Source of the DNA: Kangiella sp. TOML190
GTDB taxonomy: Bacteria; Pseudomonadota; Gammaproteobacteria; Enterobacterales; Kangiellaceae
DNA length: 64,000 bases
Reading direction: 5' to 3'
Assembly: GCF_023706045.1 (NCBI RefSeq)
Contig: NZ_BQYL01000001.1
Coordinates: forward strand, 310,001 to 374,000
In this document: positions 29,455 to 31,537 of the stretch, piece by piece
Numbering within the stretch: position 1 is the stretch's first letter
Layout: each line of letters begins with the position of its first letter
Translations under genes and position numbers: made by a program
Notes under the pieces: generated by a model
Told to the model about the DNA's origin: nothing
The model's input: the letters and a program-made list of their open reading frames with translations, nothing else
Database searches by the model: none

Positions 29455-30636
29455 ATGGTTATCAAGCCCAAGGTTAGAGGCTTTATCTGCACCGCATCAC
29501 ACCCCAAAGGCTGCGTCGCGCACGTGCAGGAACAAATCGATTATATTCAACAACAAATTACCGAAGTGCCTGCCAATGCGCCCAAAAATGTATTGGTGAT
29601 TGGCTCTTCTACCGGCTATGGTCTTGCCTCGCGCTTGGTAGCGGCTTTTGGTTATGGCGCCAAAACCTTAGGTTTATTTTTTGAAAAAGAAGCCAGCGAG
29701 CGTAAAACGGGCACTGCCGGTTGGTATAACAACCGTGGTTTTGAGATTGCTGCGGATAAAGCTGGGCTTTGGCATAAAAGCATCAATGGCGATGCTTTTT
29801 CGCATCAAGCTAAAATCGATGCCATCAACATTATTAAAGAACAGATGGGTAAAATCGATCTGGTAGTTTATTCGCTAGCTTCACCGCGCCGCCAAGATCC
29901 CGACTCTGCCGAAATCTACAAGTCAGTGTTAAAACCGATCGGCGAAGCAGTCACAGAAAAAACCTTAAACACCGATAAGGGCGAAGTTCACGAAGTTTCG
30001 ATTGATCCAGCAACCGAAGAAGATATCCAAAACACCATTAAAGTCATGGGTGGCCAAGACTGGGAGTTATGGATGAATGCTTTGGATGAAGCTGGTGTTC
30101 TAGCCGAGGGCGTAAAAACGGTAGCCTACACCTATATCGGTAAAAAGCTTACTTGGCCAATTTACGGTCATGCCACTATCGGTAAAGCCAAAGAAGATTT
30201 AGATCGCGCCTCGCATGCCATTCATGAGACATTGCAAACAAAATATAATGGCACTGCTAACGTTGCGGTACTAAAAGCGGTTGTGACTCAAGCCAGCTCG
30301 GCCATTCCAGTGATGCCACTCTACATCTCATTGCTGTATAAAGTGATGAAAGAAGCGGGCGTGCATGAAAATCCTGTTGAGCAAATCAAAGGACTCATTC
30401 ACGATCAAATGGTCAATGGCGAAGCAATTTATGACGATACTCGTCGCTTCCGTTTAGACTTAAAAGAGCTGGACGATGCGATCCAAGATAAGGTCGAAGC
30501 CCTTTGGGCGCAAGCATCGACCGAAAACATCACCGAGATCTCCGATTACGCTGGCTACAAGCATGAATTCTTTAAGTTATTTGGTTTTGAAGTCGATGGC
30601 GTTGATTACGAAGAAGACTTAGATCCTCGGATCTAG
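29455..30636 (+). CDS. fabV: Enoyl-[acyl-carrier-protein] reductase FabV
   Basis: 393 residues, close to the usual length of about 400. The NADH-binding G-S-S-T-G-Y-G-L-A-S-R is at about 50-60. The FabV-type Y-x8-K active site is Y237 and K246. The start M-V-I-K-P-K-V-R-G-F-I-C is characteristic. It performs the last reduction of each fatty-acid elongation cycle and in known members is resistant to triclosan. No FabI is seen in this window. GGAG lies 8 bases before the ATG, and a strong terminator follows. Confidence 0.97.
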   Translation: MVIKPKVRGFICTASHPKGCVAHVQEQIDYIQQQITEVPANAPKNVLVIGSSTGYGLASRLVAAFGYGAKTLGLFFEKEASERKTGTAGWYNNRGFEIAADKAGLWHKSINGDAFSHQAKIDAINIIKEQMGKIDLVVYSLASPRRQDPDSAEIYKSVLKPIGEAVTEKTLNTDKGEVHEVSIDPATEEDIQNTIKVMGGQDWELWMNALDEAGVLAEGVKTVAYTYIGKKLTWPIYGHATIGKAKEDLDRASHAIHETLQTKYNGTANVAVLKAVVTQASSAIPVMPLYISLLYKVMKEAGVHENPVEQIKGLIHDQMVNGEAIYDDTRRFRLDLKELDDAIQDKVEALWAQASTENITEISDYAGYKHEFFKLFGFEVDGVDYEEDLDPRI

Positions 30637-30653: not shown

Positions 30654-30687
30654 AAGCGCCAAGAAGTCACTTCTTGGCGCTTTTTTG
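30654..30687 (+). terminator. fabV terminator
   Basis: A perfect 12-bp stem GCGCCAAGAAGT/ACTTCTTGGCGC with a minimal loop, followed by T6. Confidence 0.92.
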
Positions 30688-30778
30688 TGTTGGGATTATT
30701 TACAATCGACCATGATAGGCCTCGAATATGTCAGAGGCAATATATTCCACTTCAATTAAATCAAATAGTTAGCAGAGT

Positions 30779-30806
30779 TGGCACACTTTATGCTTCTTAC
30801 TAGACT
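30779..30806 (+). promoter_or_regulatory. Promoter of a candidate sRNA, sigma-54-like
   Basis: TGGCAC (30779-30784) and TGC (30791-30793) place GG and GC 12 bp apart, the sigma-54 -24/-12 pattern. The same bases can be read as sigma-70: TTGGCA, 17 bp, TAGACT. A dyad GCCTC/GAGGC at 30719-30738 lies where an activator site for sigma-54 would be. The choice cannot be made from sequence. Confidence 0.5.
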
Positions 30807-30920
30807 GTGAGCACAAGCAAGTGCTGACTATCCCCGGTTAATGGCGTACAACTACCCCGTACAACATTAACCAATCAATGCGCAAGCCATTGGCCCATCC
30901 AACTGGATGGGCATTTTTTT
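30804..30920 (+). ncRNA. Candidate trans-acting small RNA, about 117 nt
   Basis: A gene-free stretch between the fabV terminator and the LON gene carries its own promoter-like site and its own plus-strand terminator. Three stem-loops can be drawn: AGCAC/GTGCT (30810-30825); GGTTAATG/CATTAACC (30836-30872), continued by GTAC/GTAC with a C-rich loop; and GCCCATCC/GGATGGGC (30893-30912) followed by seven T. Two C-rich motifs (ACTATCCCCG, ACTACCCCG) are candidate pairing regions for G-rich ribosome sites. No open frame is evident. I do not recognise a known sRNA family. Confidence 0.55.
30893..30920 (+). terminator. Rho-independent terminator of the candidate sRNA
   Basis: 8-bp stem GCCCATCC/GGATGGGC, loop AACT, then A and T7. 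The T-run is only on the plus-strand side, so it does not serve the minus-strand LON gene. Confidence 0.88.
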
Positions 30921-30946: not shown

Positions 30947-31537
30947 CTATTTTAGCCAGCTAAGCATTTGATACAAAATCGCTTGGCGCAAGGCTAAGTC
31001 GGGAGTTTCTAAAATGGCTTGCTTTTGCCGCTCACCAATGGGCATATATTCGGTTAAGCGCTCCATCACAAAGCCCAGTTCAGTCCATTTGTCTGGCTGG
31101 TCAATAATTTCCACTTCCGGATGCTGTGATAAATCGGCTAATAGACTACTCAGCTCCGAGGATTCGTTTCCTAGATTTTGCTGTGTCATGGGTTCGAGCC
31201 AAGAAACGTTGGCGGTTAGCAAACCAGACTCTAGGGATTGCATGCTATTAATTTGAAAACGCCTTTGGCCAAGACAAACAATTTTTAGCAAGCCAGATTC
31301 GGTTTGATCAAAGTCGATAATCTCTACATAAGTTCCAGTGGTAAACGGGCTTGCAGGGACTCCAACTTCGTTACCTTTTTTAATCAAACACACACCAAAG
31401 CCTTGTGCTTTGCTTAGTTGCTCAGAAATCATTTGCAGATAGCGTTGCTCGAAAATTTGCAGCCGCAACACGCTATCTGGAAACACCACCCGGCTGAGTG
31501 GGAAAATTGGAATAACGCTGTTTTTAGTAAAATCCAT
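30947..31537 (-). CDS. LON substrate-binding domain protein
   Basis: 196 residues matching only the N-terminal (substrate-binding) domain of Lon protease: I-P-I-F-P-L-S-R-V-V-F-P near the start and I-F-E-Q-R-Y-L-Q-M at 28-36. No ATPase or protease domain follows, so it cannot be a protease alone. Such stand-alone LON-domain proteins are widespread with no settled role; an adaptor function is inference. Its start abuts the stop of the ABC permease gene with no gap, so it is translationally linked to the exporter. Confidence 0.88.
   Translation of the reverse strand: MDFTKNSVIPIFPLSRVVFPDSVLRLQIFEQRYLQMISEQLSKAQGFGVCLIKKGNEVGVPASPFTTGTYVEIIDFDQTESGLLKIVCLGQRRFQINSMQSLESGLLTANVSWLEPMTQQNLGNESSELSSLLADLSQHPEVEIIDQPDKWTELGFVMERLTEYMPIGERQKQAILETPDLALRQAILYQMLSWLK

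Follow-up and report, generated by a model that had tools for sequence, protein, structure and literature searches.

A Kangiella-specific small RNA gene with a predicted sigma-54 promoter and a candidate PrsR box

Downstream of fabV, which has a terminator of its own, the genome of Kangiella sp. TOML190 carries a second strong terminator on the same strand, and an initial annotation proposed that the gap before the convergent LON gene holds a separate small RNA (sRNA) gene. Is there such a gene, which sigma factor and which regulator would drive it, and on what would its product act? We analysed a stretch of 64,000 nucleotides, hereafter the window (G000:C1:310001-374000), from a source genome of 2.45 Mb in a single contig, and compared it with other genomes of the genus and the order.

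Structure and conservation of the sRNA locus

The elements read from the window were all recovered where they had been placed: the fabV terminator (stem 30654-30682, T-run ending at 30687), the second terminator (stem 30893-30912, T7 at 30914-30920) and, between them, the promoter-like site TGGCAC-N6-TGC at 30779-30793. Promoter, body and terminator together occupy 30778-30920 of the fabV/LON gap, and the features of the locus are as follows.

29455..30636, + strand: fabV, upstream neighbour, outside the sRNA unit (Pfam PF12241, PF12242, PF07055)
30654-30682 (stem) with T-run to 30687, + strand: fabV terminator
30688..30704, + strand: 17-nt PrsR-type box TGTTGGGATTATTTACA, best match before the core to an 8-site PEP-CTERM matrix
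30759..30771, + strand: IHF-like site AATCAAATAGTTA, between the box and the -24 element
30778..30795, + strand: predicted sigma-54 -24/-12 promoter TTGGCACACTTTATGCTT, conserved in 12/12 genomes of clades A and B
30804..30920, + strand: sRNA of about 117 nt, start placed from the -12 element
30807..30828, + strand: hairpin 1 (fold and covariation)
30829..30835, + strand: exposed C-rich linker UAUCCCC, unpaired in the fold
30836..30872, + strand: hairpin 2, with loop AACUACCCC (fold and covariation)
30875..30891, + strand: conserved core UCAAUGCGCAAGCCAUU, likely the seed, once per genome in 20/20
30893..30920, + strand: intrinsic terminator with T7 (terminator scan; pairing over clades A and B)
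30947..31537, - strand: LON substrate-binding-domain gene, convergent downstream neighbour, outside the unit (Pfam PF02190)

The fold bore out the three hairpins and two C-rich stretches that the initial annotation had described. The folding energy of positions 30806-30920 is -44.2 kcal/mol, whereas shuffles average -26.0 (z -4.98); with the terminator included this is better than 200/200 dinucleotide shuffles, and the z-score is -3.25 when the terminator is left out; terminator-like sites as such numbered 11 in the 4 kb scanned, against 5.0 expected from shuffles. The core is largely unpaired, a hairpin of two pairs that is predicted within it being invariant across the alignment. The UAUCCCC linker is found throughout clades A and B but for two loci (altered in L003, one C fewer in L004), and its counterpart in clade C is UCUUCCC.

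Our Kangiella sample comprised 20 genomes, falling into clade A (n = 6, including the window's), group B (n = 6) and clade C (n = 8). In the LON protein tree A and C each form one branch (support 100/99), the support for B being 63/79, and the FabV tree (17 rows) agrees with it on the clades. A DNA comparison with the region gave matches in 20/20 genomes (all E <= 5.4e-5), and the 17-mer TCAATGCGCAAGCCAYT occurs in exactly one copy in every one of them, identical in 19 and with a C for T in the remaining one. The exact pattern of core plus terminator start was found in 14 contigs of a genome collection that may leave out records of the window's own genome; 13 are titled Kangiella (4 as 'uncultured Kangiella sp.') and one 'Kangiellaceae bacterium'. 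Using a covariance model built from 12 sequences, we recovered the sRNA in all 20 Kangiella genomes, with E-values of 1e-9 to 1e-8 for the 8 sequences outside model building, and detected no sRNA in 20 Kangiellaceae genomes of other genera, where no match was better than E 0.014. Core, terminator and C-rich stretch are common to the three clades, while the middle of the RNA differs.

The stems were conserved in these relatives with fabV beside the LON gene, the check on which the candidate had been made to depend, and it survived. Among the six clade A sequences 96.9% of the paired cells are retained, and the covariation score is 0.291 where shuffles average 0.166, none of 500 scoring as high and slid versions of the structure reaching at most 0.054. 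Eight pairs have changed on both sides, a number attained by 3/500 shuffles, six sequences being a small sample; seven of the eight belong to hairpin 2 (7/12 of its pairs, one of which forms in only 2/6 sequences) and one to hairpin 1 (1/7 pairs). The count of pair types in clade A, at 12 vs 13.4, is not above that of shuffles. Over 12 sequences, one pair of hairpin 1 is G-C in 6 and A-U in 6; terminator pairs are invariant within clade A, and one changes on both sides over A and B together. Compensatory changes thus back hairpin 2 well and hairpin 1 weakly. With one copy of the core in 20/20 genomes and compensatory changes in the stems of the RNA, the proposal of a stand-alone gene between fabV and LON is upheld, and on comparative grounds we hold 30804-30920 to be a genus-specific sRNA gene of Kangiella.

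The initial annotation had also pointed to a GCCTC/GAGGC dyad upstream of the promoter. The dyad is present in the window and, in an alignment read by eye, not shared by the other five clade A genomes; not being common to the clade, it was rejected as a regulator site.

Promoter and upstream box

The promoter-like site had been offered as readable in two ways, by sigma-54 or by sigma-70. The block TTGGCAC..TTTATGCTT is kept in 12/12 genomes of clades A and B (CTGGCAC in L003); its information content is 1.86 bits per position, compared with 0.70 upstream of it and 0.80 in the would-be -10 region; within it GG-N10-GC, with GG at -24 and GC at -12, is invariant (12/12). The genome encodes RpoN (Sigma54_DBD, 203 bits); rpoN lies just before the window at G000:C1:304786-305262, some 36 kb from the sRNA. 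A count over the complete genome gives 29 places with TGGCAC-N6-TGC, against 8 for the reversed control; 27 of them fall within open frames of 90 codons or more and two are intergenic, namely the sRNA promoter and a site just after the gene of a response regulator that we call EBP#2. This second sigma-54-like site, TTGGCACACTTCTTGC (L101, G000:C1:1957074-1957088, minus strand), has the EBP#2 gene on one side and, on the other, a 216-aa ORF without an NCBIfam match. The claim of a sigma-54-dependent sRNA is well supported, at the level of sequence conservation, in the window's clade and a sister group. The stretch ACACTTTATGCTT inside 30783-30795 is also found in the Escherichia coli lac promoter, which we take to be probably a coincidence.

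According to Haft 2006 (PMC1569441), PEP-CTERM promoters of proteobacteria consist of a 17-nt motif ending in TTTACA, a spacer (mean 62.8 nt, range 32-92) and a -24/-12 motif, the 17-nt motif being assigned to the regulator PrsR. A 17-mer ending in TTTACA stands 73-74 nt before TGGCAC in 12/12 genomes of clades A and B, within the published range, and there is no such spacer in clade C, which lacks the -24/-12 motif; our comparison with the published motif follows its description in words. For an independent view, TTTACA-N50-80-TGGCAC-N5-TTGC was scanned over 247 genomes of the order, giving 44 matches in 42 genomes vs 7 for the reversed control. Among the thirty of these loci that were inspected, 16 sites fall within reading frames and 14 between genes; eight of the intergenic sites precede PEP-CTERM-type genes (type judged by eye from the C-terminus, for L165 by likeness to relatives) and six stand before other genes. 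The boxes of the 8 PEP-CTERM-type genes read TGTCAGnnnnnTTTACA or near it, e.g. TGTCAGTAATTTTTACA, with gaps of 62-64 nt, so that the sRNA box, at 73-74 nt, stands about one helical turn further from its promoter.

With a matrix made from these 8 sites, several of which are orthologous, the best match upstream of the core, over at most 330 nt, was the same aligned box in 20/20 Kangiella genomes, at 17.1-23.7 bits in clade C, 14.9-17.1 in B and 9.1-13.4 in A, against 18.6-26.7 for the PEP-CTERM boxes themselves. The clade A scores are equalled by 3 to 12 of the 127,968 17-mers of the window, and the window's own box, at 10.9 bits, is one of 9 that reach its score; the likeness of the boxes of the window's clade to PEP-CTERM boxes is no more than moderate. 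Within the 64 kb, the sRNA promoter is the sole place where a box of at least 9.1 bits and a sigma-54-like element occur at 32-92 nt. Over the genus, TTTACA-N60-90-TGGCA-N7-TGC was found at 32 places vs 4 for the reversed control: the sRNA accounts for 12 of them, 19 fall within reading frames, and the one other intergenic place has a poor box; the best box among these 20 non-sRNA places (11.6 bits) is a chance match inside a coding frame. Under the pattern used, the sRNA is thus the sole convincing promoter of box plus sigma-54 type, and further PrsR targets may exist whose elements are looser or differently spaced. Between box and promoter, the IHF-like site stands at one offset in 12/12 genomes of A and B by a relaxed pattern, which has 41 occurrences on both strands of the window; the strict consensus is matched in 5/12.

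Clade C is the exception. Its genomes retain the RNA and near-consensus PrsR boxes (L008-L015, within 300 nt before the core), with an exact fit to TGTCAGnnnnnTTTACA in 6/8, and none of the 8 has a GG-N10-GC within 330 nt upstream of the core, so that 8/20 genomes have the box without a recognisable sigma-54 promoter to go with it. A single loss of the sigma-54 element in C would be the simplest history on a midpoint-rooted tree, the root being placed without an outgroup. The upstream region of clade C contains the long conserved blocks GTTAACATT and GTTAATCTA, and GTTAATCTA may be a -10 element.

Regulator and rival explanations

Sigma-54-activator-like domains gave 8 Pfam matches in the window's genome, three of them strong: (i) PrsR, at 691 bits against a TIGR02915 cut-off of 503, whose gene adjoins that of the kinase PrsK, (ii) EBP#2 (G000:C1:1957165-1958520), which is below every curated cut-off among the 25 families listed, and (iii) an activator whose neighbours are a PilS-like kinase and a pilin-like gene, the Pil labels being given by inspection. 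None of these three passes the NtrC cut-off, so that the 'nitrogen-type' reading of the sRNA finds no support; the upstream box points to PrsR instead. PrsR is over the TIGR02915 cut-off in 19/20 Kangiella genomes, the one miss (G002) being a genome 55% complete, and its clade C versions score lower (608-621 vs 685-709 bits). An exosortase over the cut-off was found in 0/20 Kangiella genomes, with sub-threshold partial matches in 12. Around prsKR 17 ORFs were listed, and models were run on prsK, prsR and three neighbours.

Our preferred reading, to which we give a probability of about 65%, is that the sRNA is a genus-specific, trans-acting, Hfq-assisted antisense RNA activated by PrsK/PrsR and RpoN. 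The kinase PrsK would activate PrsR, which would bind the TTTACA-type box some 100 nt upstream and, with IHF bending the DNA between box and promoter, would then activate sigma-54 RNA polymerase at the -24/-12 promoter. Transcription from there would yield a product of about 117 nt made up of a 5' hairpin, the C-rich linker, a second hairpin, the 17-nt core and a U-tailed terminator. Core and C-rich stretch would most likely be the parts by which this RNA, assisted by Hfq, acts in trans on its targets as an antisense RNA. PrsK/PrsR without an exosortase, the partner served elsewhere, would have the sRNA as its most evident remaining output in Kangiella. It is about an even bet that the system, the presumed switch for surface proteins sorted by exosortase, has been rewired in the genus, its main or only sigma-54 output now being a regulatory RNA, so that the regulators outlived the sorting machinery and one clade later lost the sigma-54 element and kept box and RNA; the sorting machinery was looked for with the exosortase model.

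Three other explanations have to be weighed against PrsR-driven transcription of a trans-acting RNA. Were the sRNA driven by sigma-54 under another activator, EBP#2 would most likely be the one and would bind at the TTTACA box. The protein is a complete sigma-54 response regulator, the second of the two intergenic TGGCAC-N6-TGC sites stands directly after its gene and has TTGGCACACTT in common with the sRNA promoter, and the TGTC half of the box resembles the GlrR sites TGTC-N10-GACA (PMC4987338). However, the 400 nt upstream of the EBP#2-adjacent promoter contain no PrsR-type box (the best score under a matrix built on the sRNA boxes is 3.8), PEP-CTERM genes have boxes of the sRNA kind, the sRNA box is 17 nt long and ends in TTTACA rather than reading TGTC-N10-GACA, and EBP#2 is far under the GlrR cut-off (349 vs 763 bits); we regard this alternative as unlikely. 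A sigma-70-type sRNA, in which the sigma-54-like block would be a -35 element plus spacer and the box a relic or the site of another factor, seems decidedly unlikely to us. TTGGCA-17-TAGACT (30778-30806) does match the consensus at 9/12 positions, and clade C has kept the RNA after losing the sigma-54 element, with the conserved GTTAATCTA as its possible -10 box. Yet such sites number 7 in the 4 kb scanned vs 8.2 expected in shuffles, so that the match alone is no better than chance; the would-be -10 is poorly conserved in A and B (3 to 5 of 6 at best, with shifting spacing) where GG-N10-GC is invariant; and the start would fall near 30813, inside hairpin 1, cutting its 5' arm.

The remaining explanation, which we consider very improbable, is that the RNA does not act in trans, being either a cis-acting part of the fabV/LON locus or a short RNA that is translated. 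The fabV-LON neighbourhood of the sRNA is indeed kept in 20/20 Kangiella genomes, and a frame of 9 codons, seen by eye, runs across hairpin 2 in L001-L003. This frame is gone by eye in L004-L006, and a small peptide was rejected as the product; the most conserved part of the RNA is the core, outside any conserved frame, and fabV has its own terminator. Moreover, the unit is inverted relative to fabV in L016-L020 and extra sequence lies between the neighbours in several genomes, so that the position of the locus is probably not the function of the sRNA.

If PrsK/PrsR does drive the sRNA, an sRNA joins its regulon and a two-component system has outlived the pathway that it serves elsewhere. Kangiella, with small genomes, no exosortase over the cut-off and one evident output, would then be a clean setting in which to look for the RNA's targets and for the signal sensed by PrsK, called obscure by the authors of the naming paper (PMC1569441). 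PrsK itself (L135:10733-12196, with relatives in L136-L140 and L198-L210) varies in length: with script-chosen start codons it has about 469-497 aa in clade A vs about 650-670 aa in B and C, and the TIGR02916 match begins at position 265 in the PrsK of the window's genome; the window's clade seems to have lost an N-terminal part of the sensor.

Related systems, mode of action and targets

At the gathering score, Rfam models found tRNAs alone in the window and no sRNA family; at E <= 10, six sub-threshold matches appeared around the locus, none of them to GlmY/GlmZ, and no match was obtained in L212, L214, L017 and L012. The Qrr and CrcZ RNAs are sigma-54-dependent sRNAs under NtrC-type activators; the Kangiella sRNA, without an Rfam match, differs from them in its activator and its structure. 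GlmY and GlmZ of enterobacteria are sigma-54 sRNAs under GlrR (PMC4987338), and the predicted Kangiella case is like them in having an NtrC-type response regulator and sigma-54 drive an sRNA. It is unlike them in its 17-nt box ending in TTTACA where GlrR sites read TGTC-N10-GACA, in the lack of an Rfam match, and in that none of the three activators is over the GlrR cut-off.

PEP-CTERM promoters (PMC1569441) share with the sRNA the motif ending in TTTACA, a spacer of 32-92 nt, the -24/-12 motif and a PrsR in the genome; in Kangiella, however, the promoter stands before a non-coding RNA, its spacer measures 73-74 nt vs a mean of 62.8, no exosortase is over the cut-off, and clade C is without the -24/-12 motif. 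In Aquincola tertiaricarbonis, an organism with PrsK/PrsR, the PEP-CTERM gene pepA is RpoN-dependent (PMC9850573), with a -24/-12 promoter and a reported upstream enhancer-like sequence; pepA is protein-coding and its RpoN dependence was measured, whereas in Kangiella that dependence is predicted from sequence. A response regulator with an sRNA as target has a likeness in Desulfovibrio vulgaris, where the mapped target of DVU0679 is Dv_sRNA2 (PMC3333781). There, unlike in our proposal, the PEP-CTERM regulator is a separate protein, DVUA0057, which enriched its five predicted PEP-CTERM targets, the targets named for it being PEP-CTERM genes and other hits. A literature search, with most subscription journals outside its scope, turned up no description of an sRNA under PrsR control or of any sRNA from Kangiella.

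Hfq is over its cut-off in 20/20 Kangiella genomes, and the window's genome combines it with a U-tailed terminator (T7 in the window), the pair of features looked for in an Hfq-dependent sRNA. Exposed seeds together with such a terminator would fit the layout of a trans-acting antisense RNA. Possible targets were sought in 83 start regions in about 94 kb and at 20 complement sites, and no conserved target was found among them. The initial annotation had suggested action on G-rich ribosome sites, and the one strong match of this kind is at the start of prsK: in the window's genome the linker is predicted to pair there at -19.2 kcal/mol, the best of the 83 start regions for this segment. By eye, the pairing stretch is lost at the prsK starts of L138, L198, L199 and L200, with L201 retaining ATGGGG only, and prsK was rejected as a conserved target. 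Allowing up to 3 mismatches, the core complement AATGGCTTGCGCATTGA gave 335 matches in the 20 genomes, 20 of which are the sRNA itself, vs 64 for the reversed sequence, a control that differs in dinucleotides, so that the excess is not taken as a signal. The 20 complement sites examined were drawn from the matches listed, which covered 10/20 genomes, the window's own not among them.

Among the matches listed there also recurs an intergenic leader terminator, GGCTTGCACnTTGCAAGCC followed by T8 (near position 750-815 of L211-L214 and L216), which has a divergent gene before it and an amidinotransferase-like ORF (labelled by inspection) about 60-90 nt after it. Three clade B and two clade C genomes have this site, at which much of the 5' arm could pair with the sRNA core; the match, a weak lead, may reflect mere terminator self-complementarity. 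The terminator itself may be an attenuator.
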